Assembly (NCBI RefSeq): GCF_007065885.1
Contig: NZ_CP041409.1
Coordinates: forward strand, 2,527,501-2,591,500
Length of the DNA stretch: 64,000 nt
Direction: 5' to 3'
Origin: Altererythrobacter sp. TH136
GTDB lineage: Bacteria; Pseudomonadota; Alphaproteobacteria; Sphingomonadales; Sphingomonadaceae
The notes under the pieces were generated by a model. It made no database searches. It was given only the letters and a program-made list of their open reading frames with translations, and was not told where the DNA came from. Position numbers and translations under genes: made by a program. Each line of letters opens with the position of its first letter. The first letter of the stretch is position 1. Below, in pieces: positions 5,324 to 56,866 of the stretch.

Positions 5324-6760
5324 CTAGAACGAGCCCGGCGCCTCGCGCTGCACCGCGTTCGGCTCTTGCGGGCGAAGCGGTTCGCGCTTGGGCGCCACCG
5401 ACAGCGGGCCCTGACCCGACGCGCCGCCGATCGGGGTGCAGGCCCGTCCGGCAAGGAAATCGAGCGCGGTCTTAATCGCGGCTTCGTTCGGGTCGCCCAG
5501 CGGATTGTTGATATCGTCGGGCGCGGCGCAGGTCTTGGGAAACACGCTGGCAAGCCCGGTGTAGTAATCCCCCTGGCCGGAGGCGTTCTCGGTGCGGAAG
5601 GCGAGCACGCGCATCCGGGCGTCGCATTCGGCCTTGTCGAGCGCGATCTGTCCCACGGGCTTCCCGAACGTGTTGGCGCCGATCAGCGCCACGTTGGTGC
5701 CCAGGTACGGGATGAAGGCGTTGGCCAGCAGCTCACTGGCCGACGCGGTGCCCGAATAGCCGATGAAGGCGATCTTGGTGGCGGCGATCGCTTGCGCCTG
5801 CGCGGCGAAGTTGCGCGCGGAATTGTTGTTCGCCTTGCTGTCGCGGAAGGTGGTGCGGCTGAACACCTGTCCGACGCGATTGGCGGCGAGGAGGTCGCCG
5901 AACAGCTCCGCCGTCGATACCAGGCCGCCGCCGTTGTAGCGCAGGTCGACGATCACCTCGGTCACGCCCTGCGCGCGGAAAGTGGAAAAGGCGGCGCGCA
6001 AGTCTGTCTCGGCCGGTCCGCCGATGAAGTTGCGCAGGTTGATGTAACCCACCTGCTTGCCGCCATCGTTCAGGATCTTGGCGCCGTAGCGATTGGACAC
6101 CGGATCGATCGTGAAATCGGCCTTGGTCAGGGTAAGGTCGCTCAACGTCCCGTTGCGGCTGACGCGCAGGACCCGCACGACGCCCGGGTCCGACGGTCCG
6201 AGCGCGTTCACCACCGCCTGCGGACCGCCGCTCGCCATCAGCGAGGCGACCGATTGCAGCGAGCTCGCCGTTGCGCCGATGGCGACGATCTCCGCCCCGC
6301 GATCGATCCCGGCATTGAGGGCGGGGGCCCCTTCATAGCTTTCCACCACGAACACCCGGCTCTGCGCGGTGTCGTATGCCAGCCGGATGCCGAAGCCCGC
6401 GCTCGAACCCGAATTGTAGAACGCCGTCTCTTCGGCGATCGAGGTGATGTAGGTGAACCCCCGGTCGCGCGATTGCGCCCGCGCGGGTGCGACGAGCGCG
6501 TCGATGTATCCCTGTACGGTCGAATAGTTGGCCTTGTTGACCGAGCTGTCGATCAGACTGGGGAACAGATACCATTCGTCGATCACCGACTTGGCGAAAT
6601 CCTGCTGCGTGGAGACCGAACACGCCGCGGTTGTCGGCGTGGGTGTCGGCGTGCCGCCGCCGCCGATCGGGCCGGGGTTGCCGCCCCCTCCGCCGCCACC
6701 GCCACAGGCGACCAGCGCCAGCGCGAGCGTCAACGAGAGCGAAGTGCGACCCATGCTCAT
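5324..6760 (-). CDS. S41 family C-terminal-processing peptidase, lipoprotein
   Basis: Predicted secreted serine protease of the CtpA/tail-specific class, lipid-anchored. The start is placed at ATG 6760 (MSMGRTSLSL), with GGGGA eight bases upstream; in-frame ATGs at 6775 and 6754 are alternatives. The signal ends in LALALVAC, then eight glycines and a Gly/Pro linker. A PDZ-like segment precedes the S41 core: VGYINLRNFIG, DLRYNGGG, the nucleophile region SGTASASELLANA and the general-base region FGKPVGQ. Substrate unknown. It ends four bases after the convergent TetR gene. Confidence 0.85.
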   Translation of the reverse strand: MSMGRTSLSLTLALALVACGGGGGGGGNPGPIGGGGTPTPTPTTAACSVSTQQDFAKSVIDEWYLFPSLIDSSVNKANYSTVQGYIDALVAPARAQSRDRGFTYITSIAEETAFYNSGSSAGFGIRLAYDTAQSRVFVVESYEGAPALNAGIDRGAEIVAIGATASSLQSVASLMASGGPQAVVNALGPSDPGVVRVLRVSRNGTLSDLTLTKADFTIDPVSNRYGAKILNDGGKQVGYINLRNFIGGPAETDLRAAFSTFRAQGVTEVIVDLRYNGGGLVSTAELFGDLLAANRVGQVFSRTTFRDSKANNNSARNFAAQAQAIAATKIAFIGYSGTASASELLANAFIPYLGTNVALIGANTFGKPVGQIALDKAECDARMRVLAFRTENASGQGDYYTGLASVFPKTCAAPDDINNPLGDPNEAAIKTALDFLAGRACTPIGGASGQGPLSVAPKREPLRPQEPNAVQREAPGSF

Positions 6761-47374: not shown

Positions 47375-47453
47375 CGTCCCGGCCTAGCCCGCCGCGCCAC
47401 GCTTGTCAGCGCCGATGCGCGCGGCTAGGGGCGCCGTTCTGTCCAGAGCATGC

Positions 47454-47544
47454 GGAGCGGTGGCCGAGTGGTCGAAGGCGCTCGCCTGGAAAGTGAGTAT
47501 ACGCCAAAAGCGTATCGAGGGTTCGAATCCCTCCCGCTCCGCCA
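47454..47544 (+). tRNA. tRNA-Ser (anticodon GGA)
   Basis: Class II tRNA. Acceptor arms GGAGCGG (47454-47460) and CCGCTCC (47534-47540), discriminator G, and an encoded CCA (47542-47544). The anticodon stem CTCGC/GTGAG encloses CTGGAAA, so the anticodon is GGA (serine UCC/UCU). A long variable arm follows, and the T-loop GGTTCGAATCC is standard. It forms the left border of an island-like segment, a common role for tRNA-Ser genes. Confidence 0.97.
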
Positions 47545-47546
47545 CC

Positions 47547-48065
47547 TAGTCCGCTAGACTTGCTCTCCGCGATGGAAGGCGCCGCAGAACGGCGCAGAAC
47601 CGCGGCATTCTGCCCGTTGAAAGGGTGCTGCAGGCTCACGGTTTTGGGGCCGACCGCTGCCTTCATCCGCGCATTCGAGGCGGCGTCTCTACGGCCTCCT
47701 GGCCGCACACCCTTTCACCGATCGACGAATTTCACCGGATGTTGTGATTTTTCGACCGTCTGTTGCGCCTTGTGGACGCGGCTGATGAGCGTTCGAAAAC
47801 GGCAGGAATCCGGGGATCTTCGTGAGAATTCCGCCGCTATACGCGTCAGATAACGCAGGTCGGGAGCAGGTGACTAGCAGGTCAACAGCAGGAGCACTGC
47901 AGGAGGCTTGCAGGCATCATGCACGAGCGTTGCAGGGCCTGCTCAGACAATACCGAGCATCCTTCGTTGATCTTCCCATCCGAGCGGCAGCTTGCGCAAG
48001 AGCAGATCCGCCAGCTTCAATCCGGCGGGCTGCCGCCCCTCGAGAATGGCCCGCTGGAGATCTGG
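47547..48065 (-). repeat. Long diverged direct repeat, copy A (tRNA-proximal)
   Basis: This ~520-bp module is repeated in diverged form at 53779-54303, same orientation, offset 6226-6232 bases. It holds, in order from the tRNA, about 300 bp of non-coding DNA, an array of eight 11-bp units (47855-47942), and the 3' end of a recombinase gene. Shared landmarks include the TAGTCCGC start (just past the tRNA CCA), a GCCTCCTGGCC block and an identical 23-base block (47961-47983 against 54188-54210). Lengths from the left edge to the recombinase stop are nearly equal (396 and 391 bases). No gene is seen in 47545-47942. Confidence 0.85.
47855..47942. repeat. Eight 11-bp-spaced GCAGG units, copy A
   Basis: GCAGG-type hexamers start at 47855, 47866, 47877, 47888, 47899, 47910, 47921 and 47932, exactly 11 bases apart: GCAGGT three times, GCAGGA twice, GCAGGC, GCACGA, GCAGGG. 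The five bases between units vary. The next 11-base step lands on the recombinase stop codon (47943). Eleven bases is close to one helical turn and is not a codon multiple, so this looks like a DNA-level, protein-binding array. Confidence 0.85.
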
Positions 48066-48779
48066 CGCTAGGAACGCGAGTTGCGTTAACTTTCGAAGGT
48101 AGGGATCGTCAACTCCGTGGGCGTGGTCGATCGAGGCACTTCTGTGGGAGAGATCTATCCCGCGCGATGCAAGTTCAGCATGCGCCCGGCGCAAGCCGGC
48201 AATCAGAGCCCTGTCGGATCGGCTGCGGCGAGGCTTCGCGCAACCCTCGATCCTCGAGGTGCGCCCGCCAGGGGTGAGAATCCTTACGAGCGAGGTGATC
48301 CGCAACAGGCCATCTTTCGGGTGCGAAGATTGTTCGTTCATTCCGGCGGTCCACCTCTCATGCGCAGACGAAACTAGATCGACGACGATGGTCTCGGGGT
48401 ATAGTCCGACGCGGGTGACGTATGTCGTCAGTTCAGACCAACCCGCGGTGGGCCGACCTGTCCATGAGCGAAGCCGCTCGATCGGAATGCTCTCGATTTG
48501 TGGAGCCGGCACTCGCCGTAACACGCGCACGGCATCGGGATCAGAGGCTGGTACGCGGGAAACGTGATAGAGGTAGCGCCTTTCTGCGCGGCCGCACGCA
48601 TGCGTTGCGGCCATCCTGTTGCCGAGCGCATCAAACAGAATGCCGGTGAGCGGAGAGTGCGAATGCCTTCGCTCCTGGCTTCTCCTTTTCCGCTTCTCCA
48701 TTTTCGGCCTGAACGGCATCGAACGTATCGCGATCAATAATCGCCGGTGTAGCCCGTGATAGCTCTTGTCCTTATGCAC
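47943..48779 (-). pseudogene. Serine-recombinase C-terminal remnant (catalytic domain missing)
   Basis: About 230 residues match the C-terminal half of alphaproteobacterial serine recombinases: zinc-ribbon-like LTGILFDALGNRMAATHA and RRYLYHVSR, then SDRALIAGLRRAHAELASRG, YLRKLTQLAFLAPDLQRAIL and the ending GLKLADLLLRKLPLGWEDQR. The catalytic resolvase domain and the coiled-coil start are absent; upstream the frame runs into unrelated sequence. It is therefore a 5'-truncated remnant, likely of an integrase that used the tRNA-Ser region. Downstream lie the 11-bp array and copy-A DNA. Confidence 0.75.
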
Positions 48780-49002
48780 AATCTTGCCGACGTAGGCGCG
48801 GTTCTGCAGTGGCTAATGTCGTGGTAGTCGTCAGGACCGTCGTTCCGCCATCAGCGTAAGTAGTGGTCGTGCCTGTCTGAGAGCAAGTAGTCGCCTGCGC
48901 TTGAGCAGGAGTCGAAAGCATCGCAGCGGCGACAGCGGTTGACGCGCTGCCGAGCAGCGCCAAGCGAATGGACGAGATTTCAAGTGCAATTTCCTCAGAC
49001 AA
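48772..49002 (-). pseudogene. Truncated secreted protein N-terminus (autotransporter-like)
   Basis: A 76-codon frame with a hydrophobic export signal (RLALLGSASTAVAAAMLSTP, AQAQA cleavage) and a Thr-rich start TTCSQTGTTTTYADGG, resembling the N-terminus of sphingomonad outer-membrane or autotransporter proteins. It ends abruptly and overlaps the 5' end of the recombinase remnant by eight bases, as expected if a deletion joined two genes. The first codon is TTG, and no good ATG exists. Function lost or unknown. Confidence 0.45.
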
Positions 49003-50673: not shown

Positions 50674-51105
50674 TCAACTGAGTGCAGAGAAGGCCGCGAC
50701 TAGCCGTTCTTCTAAATCGTCAATTGCAAAAGGCTTCTCAATGAAGTCGATCGCACCCAGTTTATGCGCTGTTGCAGCAAGCGGTATTTCCGCATGCGCT
50801 GTCATCATGATAACTGGCCAATCTATCGCGCGATCTCTAAGGTTCTGCAGCAGCTGAAATCCATCGATTTCAGGCATTCGAACATCCAGTAAAATCGGCG
50901 CTGGTTTTCGCTCTGCGATGTCTTCGAGAAATTCAGAAGGCCGCTCAAAGGACTGCACCGTGAAGCCACCCGACTCGAGCGCAAAATGAAGTGACTTCCT
51001 GATGGCGGCGTTATCATCGACCACGTAGATGACCCGCTGGTGTCGGCCATGATCTTCTCCCGCGCACTCCGGAGCAACATCGGCGGTGGTGCCTACGTCT
51101 TTCAT
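50674..51105 (-). CDS. Receiver-only response regulator (FixJ-type receiver)
   Basis: A 143-residue single-domain regulator. VIYVVDDNAAIRKSLHFALE carries the acidic pair, ILLDVRMPEIDGFQLL the phospho-acceptor Asp, VIMMTAHAEIPLAA the switch Thr and FIEKPFAIDDL the Lys. It is closest to FixJ/TtrR receivers but stops right after the receiver, with no LuxR helix-turn-helix. It is divergent from the membrane histidine kinase at 51291, so it is probably its partner and may act by protein-protein contact or phosphate transfer. ATG 51105. Codon use is AT-richer than the core genome. Confidence 0.85.
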   Translation of the reverse strand: MKDVGTTADVAPECAGEDHGRHQRVIYVVDDNAAIRKSLHFALESGGFTVQSFERPSEFLEDIAERKPAPILLDVRMPEIDGFQLLQNLRDRAIDWPVIMMTAHAEIPLAATAHKLGAIDFIEKPFAIDDLEERLVAAFSALS

Positions 51106-51290
51106 TTCAGAAGCCTTCGTTGACGCATATCCGCTCCACTGACAGGCTCGCGCGCACCGAGACCCAGTAAACCGCGGAGCCGACAGGTCAACTGAGCCTG
51201 AGGCCGGAACCTTAGCTGATAGCTTGGTCACGTAGACCGGCAGGCCATGGTCCGGCAAAAAGAACAGGTGATGTAGCAGGAGCATCAGGA

Positions 51291-53354
51291 GTGGCCAGGG
51301 CTAAGCATAATGACGCGTTAAAGCACTCGCCAATCCAGCGCTTGGTGTTGCCCTTGGTCGTCTTGATCCTGCTGCTCGGCTGGATAGCGCTTCTTACGCG
51401 TGTTGATTCCGAGCGGGAAAGCGCAGAGAGCGCTGCGATCACTCGTGCGAAAGATCGAGCAACCTTACTCGAGCAACACGTCGTCAAAACTCTCCAGGTG
51501 GCTTCGCTCGCAAGTCTTCATCTGGGCGACATGCATTTTGGAGCGAGCGCGGAACATCGGAAAGCTCAAACTAACACACGGTGGATCGAAGACGAAGCAA
51601 TAGGTATCGCTGGCTTTTCGGGTGCCACAGTCGCAAATGCAACTGGGCAGATCGTCGCCACTGCGGGCGGGCCAGCGCCTAGGCGTGAAGATCTCGCAGA
51701 GTTGAAGCTTGATTTAGTCGAGGGCCCCGACGTGACAATCGGCCGCCCTCAGCCTTTGGGCGAGACAGACCAGCAGTATGTCCTGGTGGTCCGTCGGATC
51801 AAGACGAACGGAAGCGTCGCAGGCTTTGTCGCGCTTTCTTTGCGCCCCGAGCAGTTTTTGAATTTTCCCATTAGAACGAGGTTTGAAGTAACTGATCTAG
51901 TCTCAGTGATCAATCTCGACGGGGTGACCTTAGCCCGCCGAGAAGGAGATCGTTTCTCCAGCGGCGAAAACGTGCGGGGAAGATTAGTGATGCGCGAGCA
52001 GCAAAGGAACCCAAACGGAACCTACAAAGGCCCAAGCTCCCTTGACGGTCATGTACGCTATTTCAGCCACCGACGATTAGAAGATTTTCCCATTTTTGTA
52101 ACCGCCGGGGTGTCTTACTCTGCTGCTTTGGTGAACGCCCAACGCAGGGCAATGATCTATTTCATCATCATGACGGTACTAAGTGGAGCTTGTCTTCTGA
52201 CAGCTTGGATTATCCAGCGGGAGGCCTCTTATCGTGAGAAGAACAGTGCAGAACTCGCAGGGTCAAGAAAGCGCCTGCAAGAAGCTCAGCGCGTGGCGAA
52301 AATTGGCGACTGGGAGTACGATCTGTCAAGGAATTTGGTAACTTGGTCCGACCAACTCTGTGAGATGTACGAAAGATCTTTAGAAGACGACCACCTAACC
52401 CTAGAGGATTTCGCTGCATATGTGCATCCGGATGATATATCGCAGTTTGAGAAAGATTTTCAGATTCTCTTGGGGAAAGCTGACCATCACTCTTACGAAT
52501 TTCGAGTTATCCTTCCGAGCGGCAAAATCTTGTGTCGGCATATAAATGCCATAGCGACGACCGACGAGGCAGGACAGATTATCAGCCTCTATGGCACCGA
52601 CCAAGACGTGACACACCTGCAGCTGCTCCGCGAGCTCGAGAACCACGTCGCGCACTTAGACAGGCAAGGGGCGATGAGCATGATGGCCGGAACTCTTGCG
52701 CACGAGCTAAACCAGCCGCTCACGGCAGCGTCGAATTACCTTACGGGATCTTTGCGAAACGCAGAGAAAGCGAACGAGTACCAAGGCAAAACAGTTCTCC
52801 CCGGAATGAAGCTCGCGTTAGACCAAATCCACGATGCGGCAGAAATCATTCGTCGGGTCCGCAGAATGGTACAAGTCGAGGATCGTGAAACGAAAATTGC
52901 GTCGCTGCGTGCTTGCGTTTCCGATGCTGTCGCCCTGTTGCAGGCGTCAGGGTATTCCGAGGCTAAGGAGATTCAGATTAAGGTAGATCCTGATACCCCT
53001 GAGGCATTGATCGCGCCGATTCAGCTGCAACAAGTGTTAGTCAATCTCCTCAAGAATGCTCTTGAGGCGGTTCACAACGACGTGCCCGCAGTGTCAGTGC
53101 GGGCCAGTTGCACTGACCAGAAGATGCTCAGGATCGAGGTTTGGGACAACGGACCTGGATTTCCAGCAACTGCATCTGACGTATTCTCAGCGTTCTATAG
53201 TGAGAAATCGTCGGGCACGGGGCTTGGCCTGTCGATCAGTCGGACGATCATCGAATACCACAGCGGAAAAATATATGTCGGAGAGTCGGGACCCGGAAAG
53301 ACAGTAATTGTTATTTTGCTTCCAATGGCCCCCCCCGACGCCGAGGCAGCTTAG
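51291..53354 (+). CDS. Membrane sensor histidine kinase (Cache-PAS-HisKA-HATPase)
   Basis: A 687-residue kinase. TM1 is about residues 18-38 (RLVLPLVVLILLLGWIALL) and TM2 about 284-305 (MIYFIIMTVLSGACLLTAWI); between them is a roughly 245-residue periplasmic sensor like double-Cache domains (ligand unknown). A PAS domain follows (QEAQRVAKIGDWEYDLSRN), then HisKA with the phospho-His in GTLAHELNQPLTAASNYL (about residue 470) and an HATPase (NLLKNALEAV, DNGPGF, GTGLGLSISRTII). GTG 51291 with caggag upstream. Paired with the divergent receiver protein. Confidence 0.88.
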   Translation: MARAKHNDALKHSPIQRLVLPLVVLILLLGWIALLTRVDSERESAESAAITRAKDRATLLEQHVVKTLQVASLASLHLGDMHFGASAEHRKAQTNTRWIEDEAIGIAGFSGATVANATGQIVATAGGPAPRREDLAELKLDLVEGPDVTIGRPQPLGETDQQYVLVVRRIKTNGSVAGFVALSLRPEQFLNFPIRTRFEVTDLVSVINLDGVTLARREGDRFSSGENVRGRLVMREQQRNPNGTYKGPSSLDGHVRYFSHRRLEDFPIFVTAGVSYSAALVNAQRRAMIYFIIMTVLSGACLLTAWIIQREASYREKNSAELAGSRKRLQEAQRVAKIGDWEYDLSRNLVTWSDQLCEMYERSLEDDHLTLEDFAAYVHPDDISQFEKDFQILLGKADHHSYEFRVILPSGKILCRHINAIATTDEAGQIISLYGTDQDVTHLQLLRELENHVAHLDRQGAMSMMAGTLAHELNQPLTAASNYLTGSLRNAEKANEYQGKTVLPGMKLALDQIHDAAEIIRRVRRMVQVEDRETKIASLRACVSDAVALLQASGYSEAKEIQIKVDPDTPEALIAPIQLQQVLVNLLKNALEAVHNDVPAVSVRASCTDQKMLRIEVWDNGPGFPATASDVFSAFYSEKSSGTGLGLSISRTIIEYHSGKIYVGESGPGKTVIVILLPMAPPDAEAA

Positions 53355-53776
53355 CAGTCCGCACGGCGCCGCGTTCGTTGACGAAGCAGATAGTTCGCTT
53401 CGAGCCCCGTTGATTTCGTTGATGCAGCGGTCAAAGAAGCCCCTGAACATTGGCTTCAGCCAGCAGCCGTGCGGAAACGCGCTCAATCGATATACGAGTT
53501 CCTGAAATACGACTGCTGGGGCTGACAGCTTCGCGTCAATGTCTGCTTAGTACACTTCCGCACCCTAAAGCCGAATGTCCAACTTCGGCCCAAGAGCTGC
53601 CGGTCAGCTGAAAGGTAGGTTTCGCCTCATCCGTTGCGGATTGGTTCGGCCATGCGAACAAATTGAGCTGCCGATCAAATAGGGGAGGGAAGCCAGACAC
53701 TGTTCTGCTCCCGTTCGCGCACTTACTCGCACGGTTGCGAAGAAAAAGCTCTTTCATAGGTGCTCTCTCTGCCCCC
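53355..53776. other. Intergenic island DNA, no supported gene
   Basis: From the kinase stop to the left edge of repeat copy B I see only short frames without domains. Its right end (CCCCCTCTAGTCCGC, from 53772) resembles the sequence just beyond the tRNA-Ser CCA in copy A, so a degraded attachment site may lie here, but no tRNA fold remains. Confidence 0.45.
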
Positions 53777-53778
53777 TC

Positions 53779-54303
53779 TAGTCCGCAAGCGCTGCTCCGT
53801 TCCATGGAGGGCGCGGCTTTAATTGGCGCGGAACTGCGGCATCCTGCCATCTGAATGGAGAAGCGGGGGACGGTTTTGAGCTCGATCGGTGCCTTCTTCT
53901 CTGCATTTGACGCCTCGTCTCTAGGGCCTCCTGGCCACACACCGTTCCACGGATCACCAACTTCACCTACTCCGGTGATTTCCGGCCGTCGCTGGCCTTT
54001 CCGTCGAAGCTAACAAGGGTCTGAACGGGCACAAATGCGGGGTTCTCCAAAATATCTGATGCCGCATGCGCAAAAACGATGCAGGTCTGGAGCAGGTGAA
54101 TAACAGGGAGATGGCAGGTGATATTGCTGGACACATGCAGGTATTCTGCTGGAGTGTTGCAGCGCCAACTCAGCCAATATCGAGCGGCCTTCGTTGATCT
54201 TCCCATCCGAACGGAAGCTTGCGCTGGAACATGTCCGACAGCTTCAATCCAACGGGCTACCGGCACAGTCCGAGGGAGCCGATGCAGATCTCGAACGGCC
54301 CTA
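53779..54303 (-). repeat. Long diverged direct repeat, copy B
   Basis: Diverged copy of 47547-48065, same orientation. It keeps the non-coding left part, the 11-bp array (54081-54169) and a short recombinase 3' end (54170-54303). In the last part the minus strand reads GLKLSDMFQRKLPFGWEDQR followed by a stop, matching GLKLADLLLRKLPLGWEDQR of copy A, but an in-frame stop lies just upstream of it, so it is a dead fragment. The DNA between A and B (about 6.2 kb) is the island interior. Confidence 0.8.
54081..54169. repeat. Eight 11-bp-spaced GCAGG/GCTGG units, copy B
   Basis: Units start at 54081, 54092, 54103 (ACAGG), 54114, 54126 (GCTGG), 54137, 54148 (GCTGG) and 54159 (GCAGC). Spacing is 11 bases except one step of 12; the next 11-base step lands on the recombinase-remnant stop at 54170. 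Eight units, the same position and the same end point as in copy A, although the intervening bases differ, indicate that spacing was under selection or inherited intact. Confidence 0.75.
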
Positions 54304-54633
54304 GACTGGGTGGGGAGCAAAGTCAGCGCCTTGTTCGATAGCACTTTGGCCACAAACTTCGAACTGCTGTTAGTATAAGATGGGTGGATAATTGATCAAA
54401 CATTTCGAGCTTAGTAAGTACCCCTGGCTTTGCGCACCGATCGTGCAATGCGACTCCGTTATGGGGCAACAGTCGCTCGTACATCGGGCCTGAGCCCTCA
54501 AAAACTCAACGATTCTTGCCGGCGAATTTTAAGGGGTGATCTCGATTTCAGCGGTTTCCACAAACGGGTAAGTCATCGCGCAGCACGGCTAATCCGGACA
54601 AGCCAAACCGGGCCGAATTTTTCCATATAACCG
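54304..54633. other. Intergenic DNA downstream of the FixJ-like regulator
   Basis: No gene is supported. The segment is moderately AT-rich (for example around 54375-54420) and separates the repeat copy B from the 3' end of the FixJ-like gene. Its small open frames lack any signal or domain. Confidence 0.5.
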
Positions 54634-55311
54634 TCAGTGGGGCTTGATCCCGGCAAGCAAGGCGAGACGAACTGCATCAGCGACCGACTTGGCGCCTAGA
54701 CTGCGCATGAGGTTGCTGCGGTGGATTTCCACGGTTCGGATGCTGATGCCCATCGATTGAGCAGCGCCCTTGTTCGAGAGGCCCGCCACAATGCCTTCCA
54801 GCAGTTCGCGTTCGCGACGGGTCAGAGAAGCAACCAACCGCGCCGCTTCAGCTGCTGCTGTGTCCGCTGCGGCCGCCGCTGGCAGGCTCTGGAACAGCGA
54901 CGTCAAAACGCTAATCAGCGCCTCATCGGTGAATGGTTTCTCAAGGAAGTCGGTAGCGCCCATTTTCATGGCGCGTACTGCAACGTCAATCTCACCGTGT
55001 CCGGTAATCATCACGACCGGAAAGCGCCGGCTCCGGCTACCCATCGATTCCAGTACGTTCAGTCCATCAATCTTTGGCATTCTGAGGTCAAGCAAAACGC
55101 AGCCGGGCTCGAGATAGTCCAATTCGGCCAGGAAATCTTCGCCCGATGCAAAGGAGCGAGCCGCAAAGCCTGCCGAAGCCAGAAGAAAATACAGTGCTCG
55201 TCGCACCATGCTGTCATCATCAACGATGTAAACTTGCTGGCTTGCGGAGGACTCTGACGACTCAATGTCTTCAGTAAATTGTGTAGCTCTCACCGTGCTG
55301 CTAACGTTCAT
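54634..55311 (-). CDS. FixJ/LuxR-type response regulator
   Basis: A 225-residue two-domain regulator: receiver (QQVYIVDDDSMVRRALYFLL, phospho-Asp in VLLDLRMPKIDGLNVL, VVMITGHGEIDVAV, FLEKPFTDEAL) and a C-terminal LuxR helix-turn-helix (LTRRERELLEGIVAGLSNKG, GISIRTVEIHRSNLMRSLGA). An Ala-rich linker (about residues 145-160) joins them. ATG 55311 overlaps the end of the upstream kinase gene by 11 bases, so they are a coupled pair. Confidence 0.92.
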   Translation of the reverse strand: MNVSSTVRATQFTEDIESSESSASQQVYIVDDDSMVRRALYFLLASAGFAARSFASGEDFLAELDYLEPGCVLLDLRMPKIDGLNVLESMGSRSRRFPVVMITGHGEIDVAVRAMKMGATDFLEKPFTDEALISVLTSLFQSLPAAAAADTAAAEAARLVASLTRRERELLEGIVAGLSNKGAAQSMGISIRTVEIHRSNLMRSLGAKSVADAVRLALLAGIKPH

Positions 55312-56866
55312 TATTTGAGCAACCCTCTGTGTTTTGCGGTAACGAAAACCGGAACTCAGACCCTGATAGGTCGCTTTGCTCCAGCCAAATGCGCCCACCG
55401 TGGCTTTCAACGATGGTTCGGCAGATCGCAAGTCCCAGTCCCGTGCCACCTTCCTTCCTGGAGTCCGTCCAGATGAAAATGTTCTGAGCAGCCTCGACTG
55501 AGAGGCCTTGCCCCTGGTCTCGTACTGAAACAACTATCGCGTCTGCGGCTACATGAGCTCCGAGCGTAACGGTATTTGGCTGCGCAGTTTTGGCAGCACA
55601 TGCGTTTCTCAACAGGTTGATGACAACCTGCTGGATCTGAACACGATCAGCGACCACGGGTATATCGTCGGAAATCGCCACCACGATACTTGAGGAATTA
55701 CAATCACCAACTCTCACGAGCCGCGCCGACTCGGCCAAGGCTTCGGTTAGACTGAAACACGTACGGGAGGTCTCACCGCGCCGGGTCAAATCCCTGATGC
55801 TCCGGATGACGTCGCCCGCGCGCCGCGCGGCGCCTTCCACCTCACCTAGCACATCTTCGAGATGTTCGAGCGGTGCAGTGCCGGCTCGCAATGATCTAAG
55901 ACCCGCGCTTGCAAACATGGAGATAGCAGCGAGCGGTTGGTTGAGTTCATGAGCCAGCGTGGCCGCCATCATTCCCATGATGTTTACACGAGAGACATGT
56001 GCAATTTCTGATCGCAACAGTGCGAGTTGCTGTTCGGCAGTTTTCTCAGCAGTCACGTCTGAGCCCTCGGCGAAAAGACCCGTGACCTTGCCTCTATCAT
56101 CCCTCACGGGCTGATAAACGAAGTCGATATACCGGGTTTCGTAGGCTCCCCTACCATCAGCAGAAAGGCGAATTGGCATCGCTTCGCCAACAAACGGTTC
56201 CCCCGTCCGGTAAACGGTGTCTAGGATAGCTATGAAGCCCTGATCCCGAATTTCCGGCAGTACGTCCGCCACCGTCTGTCCGATAAAGTCATAGCGCCCG
56301 ACTAGCCGCTCATATGCGGGATTTGCGAAGGTGAAACGGTGTTCCGGCCCCTCAGTCGCGGCGATGAAGCCAGGGGCCCGGGTATACAGCTCTGCAAGCT
56401 GACTGCGCTGCTTGATCAGACGGTCGACCCGTCCGCTCACTTCTATAAACGCGAGCGTGTGATAGAGGGCATCGTTCAATTCGTCGCCGATTGGGCTAAA
56501 GAAAACAGTGGCGAGATACTCCTCGCCATCCGCACGGCAGCATATCGCTTCGAGGGCGCCGTGCGCCTTGCTGTCCAGACCAGCCGAGATTGCCGATACG
56601 TCGCTCTCCCTTCCGTTGTTTCGGAGCAGAATGGAGACTGGGCGGCCTGCTAGTTCGCTGAAGCGATGTCCTGTCAAAGCTAACAAACTTTCGTTGGCGA
56701 ACAGGATTGGGTGGCCCGGACCCCGATCAGTCAGAACCATAGGCATCTTCATCGACTGAACTGCAGAGGCGAACGGGCCCAATGCTTTCCGAAGCTCCTC
56801 AAGGCGCTCCCGGGAAAATGCAGGGGAAGCCATTACTTTGGGTGCCTCGTCGTCGATCTGCGCCAT
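55301..56866 (-). CDS. FixL-like soluble histidine kinase with LOV-like and PAS domains
   Basis: A 521-residue kinase with no transmembrane segment. Residues about 40-145 look like a LOV-type PAS (PMVLTDRGPGHPILFANESL, LTGHRFSELAGRPVSILL, CCRADGEEYLATVFFSP), but where LOV proteins have GRNCRFLQ this one has GRPVSILL, so the flavin-adduct Cys is replaced by Val77. A second PAS is at about 155-275. HisKA has His306 in ATLAHELNQPLAAIS; the HATPase has NLLRNACAA, DQGQGL and GGTGLGLAICRTIV. Coupled to the FixJ-like gene. The sensed signal is unknown. Confidence 0.88.
   Translation of the reverse strand: MAQIDDEAPKVMASPAFSRERLEELRKALGPFASAVQSMKMPMVLTDRGPGHPILFANESLLALTGHRFSELAGRPVSILLRNNGRESDVSAISAGLDSKAHGALEAICCRADGEEYLATVFFSPIGDELNDALYHTLAFIEVSGRVDRLIKQRSQLAELYTRAPGFIAATEGPEHRFTFANPAYERLVGRYDFIGQTVADVLPEIRDQGFIAILDTVYRTGEPFVGEAMPIRLSADGRGAYETRYIDFVYQPVRDDRGKVTGLFAEGSDVTAEKTAEQQLALLRSEIAHVSRVNIMGMMAATLAHELNQPLAAISMFASAGLRSLRAGTAPLEHLEDVLGEVEGAARRAGDVIRSIRDLTRRGETSRTCFSLTEALAESARLVRVGDCNSSSIVVAISDDIPVVADRVQIQQVVINLLRNACAAKTAQPNTVTLGAHVAADAIVVSVRDQGQGLSVEAAQNIFIWTDSRKEGGTGLGLAICRTIVESHGGRIWLEQSDLSGSEFRFSLPQNTEGCSNNER

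Follow-up and report, generated by a model that had tools for sequence, protein, structure and literature searches.

Two rows of eight short direct repeats, stepped at about one helical turn of DNA, each end at the stop codon of a broken large serine recombinase gene in the window (the whole 64-kb stretch of DNA that was analysed), and rows of the same family recur beside related recombinase genes. The array, its phase, its recurrence, its near-fixed distance from the att junction and, in this group, its link to insertion at tRNA-Ser genes are well supported. To the reading that the array is an att-flanking strip, along one DNA face of which an island protein would assemble to control integration and excision, we give a probability of about one half; this docking-strip reading is favoured because many related islands carry similar rows at a near-fixed distance from the insertion point.

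Two phased arrays beside a tRNA-Ser gene

Array A consists of seven exact GCAGG units and one GCACG in exact 11-bp steps (starts at 47855, 47866, 47877, 47888, 47899, 47910, 47921 and 47932), and the step after its last unit, at 47943, falls on TCA, the reverse complement of the TGA of recombinase remnant A. More than three exact GCAGG at 11-bp steps are found in array A only, within the 64 kb and on both strands. Array B is looser, its units reading GCAGG, GCAGG, ACAGG, GCAGG and, after a 12-bp step, GCTGG, GCAGG, GCTGG and GCAGC, followed by TCA at 54170. A preliminary description of this DNA had claimed eight units in 11-base steps abutting a recombinase stop codon, and a second copy of eight units with an equal end point and a single 12-base step; both arrangements were confirmed. 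It had also proposed helical phasing, and this is supported by shuffled controls: the longest run of a single 4-mer at 11-bp steps is six in array A and four in array B, whereas dinucleotide shuffles of the two regions of about 400 bp (5000 each) gave a maximum of three, the observed length being reached in 0 of 5000 in either case. At the other lags from 7 to 15, single-4-mer runs in the array regions of A and B were of two at most. Mechanically predicted plus-strand open reading frames overlap the arrays (47822-48277 in A and 54118-54378 in B), and a period of 11 is not a coding period. It is reasonable to suppose that some protein binds along one DNA face of the array; a drift of about 120 degrees over eight 11-bp steps, at 10.5 bp per turn, was counted against the best explanation.

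Copies A and B share 71-72% identity over about 450 bp, from the tRNA boundary region through the array to the recombinase end, with the homology ending at the tRNA boundary within the outermost bases of copy A (Table 1), and they are the only copies in the host genome, a single contig of 2.61 Mb (E <= 0.001). At unit positions 1-5 the two agree in 35 of 40 bases, in the spacers in 28 of 48 (Fisher p = 0.004). An origin by chance or by neutral tandem duplication would be in keeping with the presence of the region among the entries of Tandem Repeats Finder and with the broken state of both recombinase genes that adjoin arrays in the window. Conversely, units were kept while spacers came to differ, the shuffles of window regions and flanks gave shorter runs, and rows recur at fixed distances in relatives (below); this explanation was ruled out and is given hardly any weight.

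Table 1. Features of the two array copies and their surroundings, in window coordinates
Feature	Position	Strand	Remarks
tRNA-Ser (gga)	47454..47544	+	ARAGORN and Rfam; 3' end towards recombinase remnant A; insertion target
Outermost bases of copy A, adjoining tRNA 3' end	47545..47568	-	position of left att half in relatives; by-eye alignment of 75 bp before tRNA
Copy A spacer, att junction to array	47569..47854	-	inverted repeat 47615-47627 / 47708-47720; GAGAC at 47685-47689, minus strand
Array A	47855-47942	.	eight 11-bp GCAGG-type units
Recombinase remnant A, C-terminal part only	47943..48809	-	residues ~233-521 of L078 protein; stop 47943-47945
Copy B spacer	53776..54080	-	homologous to 47545-47854
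Array B	54081-54169	.	eight looser units, one 12-bp step
Recombinase remnant B, last codons	54170..54262	-	69% identity over 29 residues, one TAG; stop 54170-54172

Remnant A includes a minus-strand open reading frame of 278 aa (47943-48779) that ends in TGA; it matches the PHROG recombinase C-terminal family phrog_14161 and is 50% identical to the recombinase of locus L078, 45% to L077, 41% to L079 and 37% to L037 (L numbers denote loci or sequence stretches, G numbers genomes). Stretches like GGGTGTGTGG, and CAGAGAC, are also present in L077-L079, which in this respect resemble the copy A spacer. Copies A and B would be the decayed recombinase-side ends of two large-serine-recombinase islands in tandem beside the tRNA-Ser gene. 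Response regulators and PAS histidine kinases are encoded near and between the copies (50674-51285, minus; 51291-53354, plus; 54634-55533, minus; 55301-56866, minus) and are possible cargo. An exact 27-bp copy of the tRNA-Ser 3' end (window 47519-47545) lies at G000:C1:2591902-2591928, or window coordinates 64402-64428, just past the window end and about 16.9 kb from the tRNA; it may be the right end of an older or different element. As an att site of the remnant's recombinase it was considered and dropped, because about GGCGG is all that the att halves have in common with the tRNA. Searches of 80, 80 and 60 kb of G427, G279 and G003 found no long direct repeat of the tRNA end, and a pattern search of these stretches and the window found no right att half.

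Recurrence and geometry of the module

Loci were drawn from 98 related genomes (remnant query), 397 family genomes (C-terminal profile) and a named genome collection, searched with the protein of L087, a locus of Tsuneonella troitsensis that is also carried by G009; they represent part of the matches. As G009 belongs to the same genus as the window's host, this genus is probably Tsuneonella. Hits that stopped over 8 residues before the last residue of the query, downstream pieces below 150 bp and duplicates were discarded, which left 129 distinct 3' flanks. Those with a best C-terminal query of the window, L004, L006 or L011 type (qA/q4/q6/q11) form the array groups and those of q7/q8/q10 the other groups, these being best-query groups of C-terminal matches and not tree clades. 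At least three CCTG in phase (11 or 21/22 bp) occur in 39 of 61 array-group flanks versus 0 of 68 others; the 22 array-group flanks that fail this three-unit test were counted against the best explanation. On the recombinase strand the family unit is CCTG followed by T, A or C. A motif-free 5-mer search returned mainly CCTG-type motifs in the array groups, and in the other groups significant chains in five flanks, namely L114 (CTGTT, 21/22 bp) and four isolated cases. No array was found in phage AcaML1 and two plasmid relatives (stretches L279-L281). The recombinase of AcaML1 (L279) is annotated as large and small subunits in adjoining genes, the small after the large.

Exact 11-bp arrays with at least three CCTG number five: both window copies, L077, L078 and L079, the last having eight units once CGTG is allowed. 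Most of the other arrayed rows step by 21 or 22 bp, and in the rows without 11-bp steps 90 of 129 successive intervals are of 21 (46) or 22 (44) bp. The 11-bp pattern matched six of the 397 family genomes, namely that of the window, G232, G427 and G347, and G348 and G161 with simple repeats; its backwards control matched two (G161 and G403). The check on intact relatives that the preliminary description had suggested did not refute its proposal: L078 and L079, with long open recombinase genes, have an 11-bp array past the stop, as does L077, whose frame is without a normal N-terminal part, and many more relatives have the 21/22-bp version. Its 11-bp spacing is real in the window copies but is not the general period, being confined to one small group.

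A quick recombinase tree of 102 rows, which left out proteins below 440 residues or not under 650 as well as the window fragments, and in which the root is the drawing midpoint and 28 of 99 inner branches are open, placed the arrays in one 42-row group (SH-aLRT 99). This group holds 3 rows with 11-bp arrays, 26 with at least three units, 5 with two units at 21/22 bp and 8 without an array; 0 of the remaining 60 rows has one. The 8 rows without an array were counted against the best explanation.

The order of the module is array, about 128 bp, a palindromic CCCTGTT site and the att junction, usually at a tRNA-Ser 3' end. The first unit falls within the last codons of the recombinase gene in several relatives (e.g. 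L039, L044, L059 and L061, all with PCS in the C-terminus). In 35 rows a palindromic site could be matched, 127-129 bp from the last unit in 24 of 33 measured rows and 138-139 bp in 5 more, where the pattern had caught the second half-site; of 29 measured distances from palindromic site to tRNA, 22 are of 197-198 bp. CCCTGTT, counted in 20 loci with long flanks, has 62 hits in the first 300 bp past the stop versus 0-6 in each other 300-bp bin. In the tRNA-Ser group some 300 bp separate the array from the att junction, which was also counted against the best explanation.

ARAGORN placed a tRNA within 700 bp past the stop in 46 of 61 array-group flanks, 45 of them tRNA-Ser of four anticodons and one a tRNA-Tyr (L135, in qA, without an array); the distance from stop to tRNA-Ser is 355-407 bp in 41 of 45. 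In the other groups a tRNA was found in 30 of 68 flanks, of ten amino-acid types and including 8 Ser, and all 76 flank tRNAs are antisense, with the 3' end towards the recombinase. Because 30 of 68 other-group flanks adjoin an antisense tRNA, tRNA 3' ends look like common targets of the superfamily; and since these islands use tRNA targets, eight of them tRNA-Ser, with no array detected on that side, the array is not needed for targeting, another point counted against the best explanation. Other-group recombinases beside antisense tRNA genes include L007, L013, L016, L022, L026, L083, L128 and others. A distant recombinase in q8, L114, adjoins a tRNA-Ser (gct) with CCCTGTT sites and a palindrome resembling those of the main group, either through exchange of att regions or through convergence.

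Ahead of the tRNA-Ser the island end is commonly AGAGACTAGTGCTGGGGGT, as judged from a by-eye alignment. In L045 and L070 the left end continues instead into GGCGGTGCTGTCAGTCTAACGC(G/T)AACTCGTC(T/C)C, which is probably the other att half, with a core like that of an ordinary inverted-repeat attP. Putative att halves around a common core were read by eye in L045, L070 and others and additionally by pattern.

The module is also present where no recombinase gene adjoins it. The pattern CCCTGTTN{13,16}CCCTGTTN{13,16}CCCTG, run on 385 class-level genomes, matched 19, and its backwards control 0. Among 22 opposite-end regions that were fetched, 5 had a recombinase match and 10 a strict match to the second att half, in 8 of these at 174-177 bp past the start of the array; L260 and L278 resemble unrelated repeats, and L264 is without the palindromic site. 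In IMG/VR, 112 stretches match a similar pattern, 14 of them on a stretch with a recombinase match and 6 with an att half 176-180 bp from the array start; among the first 60 matches listed, many are simple repeats or one recurrent phage repeat. L289, L291, L294 and similar stretches carry a different recurrent phage repeat, CCCTGTTTTCAGGGATA-like with steps of 21-23 bp, with no recombinase link here. Contigs L296, L314 and L362, of 7.0-7.5 kb, carry recombinase and array at opposite ends, with the strict att half in L296 and L362. In L373 and L320 the array is followed by the att half and, about 490 bp on, by a recombinase pointing at it, a layout as expected of a joined attP or of tandem islands. 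An all-against-all comparison of open reading frames beside opposite-end arrays found no gene common to more than two loci. Because the opposite-end copies adjoin the other att half, the module appears to belong to the att region, on either side; the initial view of the array as a feature of the recombinase 3' end as such was not supported, since other Alphaproteobacteria have islands in which the module adjoins the second att half, for which reason "att-flanking module" is the better name.

The position of the module between the recombinase stop and an antisense tRNA in the tRNA-Ser group, together with the fact that the last 21/22-bp unit is often an inverted repeat, might suggest a role at the RNA level, as a terminator or insulator that keeps recombinase transcripts from running antisense into the tRNA. 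We consider this very unlikely: direct phased repeats are not expected of terminators, no promoter- or terminator-like site was found in 47440-48800, and the module also occurs at island ends without a recombinase.

Candidate binders and possible roles

Among loci of the 21/22-bp tree group with at least 2.6 kb upstream, all 20 have DUF2924 and 17 have DUF3489 beside the recombinase, the figures for other loci being 44 and 28 of 47 (names as in Pfam). DUF2924 was thereby weakened as a special partner of the array, and a DUF2924 model gave no match at E <= 0.001. When at least 4.5 kb of upstream sequence was required, 11 of 13 such loci had ParB_N-methylase and as many had DUF5681, versus 5 of 35 others for each. 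For 61 named loci of at least 8 kb, whose relatedness inflates tests of association, a strong array occurs with ParB_N-methylase in 8 and without it in 0, and no strong array occurs with it in 11 and without it in 42. Six of these 11 have one array pair; the loci without ParB_N-methylase include one array pair (L128) and one palindrome (L114).

In its distribution the array follows ParB_N-methylase and DUF5681 more closely than it does DUF2924 or DUF3489, and this suits an operator or maintenance function no less than the best explanation. ParB_N-methylase and/or DUF5681 would then bind the array so as to regulate their own operon or for the segregation, marking or stabilisation of the excised circle, and the array would be near att only through being near the end of the island. 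The ParB_N-methylase match starts at a distance of 129-201 bp from the array, and is directed away from it, in five IMG/VR contigs (L287, L296, L322, L334 and L392), the distance being 463 bp in L314 and 916 bp in L362. G347 has an 11-bp CCTG array (L187 ~6430-6490; G347:C1 ~205435) that lacks a recombinase match and precedes a DUF5681 gene by about 250 bp, and ParR is described as binding repeats of 11 bp in plasmid R1 and of 20 bp in pSK41 (PMC9426499, in the excerpt available). However, shared descent confounds the gene association, the surroundings of the ParB operon showed no CCCTGTT cluster in the recombinase-side group, the array is not repeated in two weak relatives of the G347 gene, and G279 has an array with no ParB_N-methylase or DUF5681 match within 80 kb, a case that was counted against the best explanation as well. 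In G427 such matches lie about 20 kb from the recombinase. Moreover, a role of this kind does not need fixed distances to the att junction. We rank an operator or centromere-like role of the ParB_N-methylase/DUF5681 pair second, as a possible but doubtful explanation, and assembly on the array or control of directionality first.

Plasmid iteron and operator layouts resemble direct repeats at 21-22-bp steps beside palindromic half-sites, as seen here, and the array might in principle be an iteron-like replication origin of the excised circle. This seems improbable, as no replication-initiator gene was noticed among the conserved neighbours (in the course of general annotation, not an initiator-directed search), and the matched genes of L296, L314 and L362 are those of the recombinase, DUF2924, DUF3489, DUF5681 and ParB_N-methylase, the other genes being unnamed.

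A further candidate is the recombinase itself. The L087 protein has resolvase and recombinase domains (PF00239 and PF07508), as in a large serine recombinase island, of which the window retains the C-terminal part only; its model (mean pLDDT 80.7) matches solved large serine integrases, the placement of the domains being unsure because the pTM is 0.39. From the alignment that fed the folding, rows with stop codons (L098 and L105) and some others were omitted. The A118 integrase profile stops matching near residue 391, and residues 401-521 match the separate family phrog_14161; a Pfam scan of four C-terminal pieces gave nothing above the cut-off. This extra C-terminal domain is a possible binder of the array, so that the candidates comprise it and the ParB_N-methylase, DUF5681, DUF2924 and DUF3489 proteins.

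In the preferred reading, that of an att-flanking strip, the module would comprise an outermost row of binding sites on one face of the DNA, a spacer, the palindromic site and, at the att junction itself, the core site of the recombinase. An island-encoded protein would bind the units head to tail and bend or wrap the DNA, and in this bound state would help the recombinase to tell attP, attL and attR apart, controlling integration versus excision. Tandem islands, protein binding, bending and control of directionality are all inferred. A fuller version can be put forward only tentatively: a family of large serine recombinase islands may have an extended, lambda-like attP, with the module on either side, where an island protein (perhaps ParB_N-methylase, which could also methylate the units, or the recombinase C-terminal domain) polymerises on the phased array and sets the direction of recombination or the fate of the circle.

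Serine integrases are prized for short att sites without accessory DNA. To our knowledge they are generally held to need only such a short site and factors that bind the integrase, not DNA, which counts against the best explanation. If the module does act in recombination, a natural, Alphaproteobacteria-wide branch of serine recombinases would depart from the short-att rule and would offer a handle on how such islands decide on leaving the chromosome. The array signature marks island ends on either side, and the module points to DUF2924, DUF3489, DUF5681 and ParB_N-methylase as candidate recombination or maintenance factors. No title or abstract describing a phased array at a serine-recombinase island was found in literature whose coverage takes in few subscription papers or preprints.

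Comparison with known systems

The recombinase of Wolbachia phage WO matches the whole query length at 34%, and DUF2924 and a recombinase are named together in those parts of the Wolbachia literature that were available. WO variants differ in that they use a magnesium chelatase gene or other sites, and the accessible portion of PMC9203015 mentions no array. DUF3489 is named in PMC4520260 and fusions of a ParB fold with an N6_N4-methyltransferase are enriched in prophages (PMC12704722), both as given in extracts. RdfS of a Mesorhizobium ICE is likewise an alphaproteobacterial island factor and oligomerises on DNA at attP, but its partner is a tyrosine integrase and no consensus motif is apparent in its sites, according to the sections at hand of PMC11963761.

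The array, as a cluster of direct repeats in the range of 10-20 bp, also resembles parC centromeres bound by ParR, with their clusters of 11- or 20-bp direct repeats (PMC9426499, in part). It differs in being tied to the att junction. The genes looked for beside the repeats were those of ParB_N-methylase and DUF5681, and ParB_N-methylase is not known as an adaptor in partition.

A further likeness is to the sites of tyrosine-integrase directionality factors such as lambda Xis and phage 186 Apl, where short direct repeats one helical turn apart lie in the att region of the element; for Apl, the available text of PMC7498355 gives seven operators at pR-pL and, in attP, five of 6 bp each, spaced by 10-11 bp. 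Repeats about one turn apart (11 bp) are found here in arrays A and B and in L077-L079, and two turns apart (21/22 bp) in the other rows, in both cases within an apparent att region, either from the recombinase stop to the tRNA-Ser junction or beside the other att half, the attP being inferred. The differences are that the adjacent enzyme is a large serine recombinase, that the array lies well away from the att junction, that two-turn steps prevail and that the binder is putative. Phased operator arrays are already known for tyrosine-integrase directionality factors, and the att-flanking module would be their possible counterpart beside a large serine recombinase.
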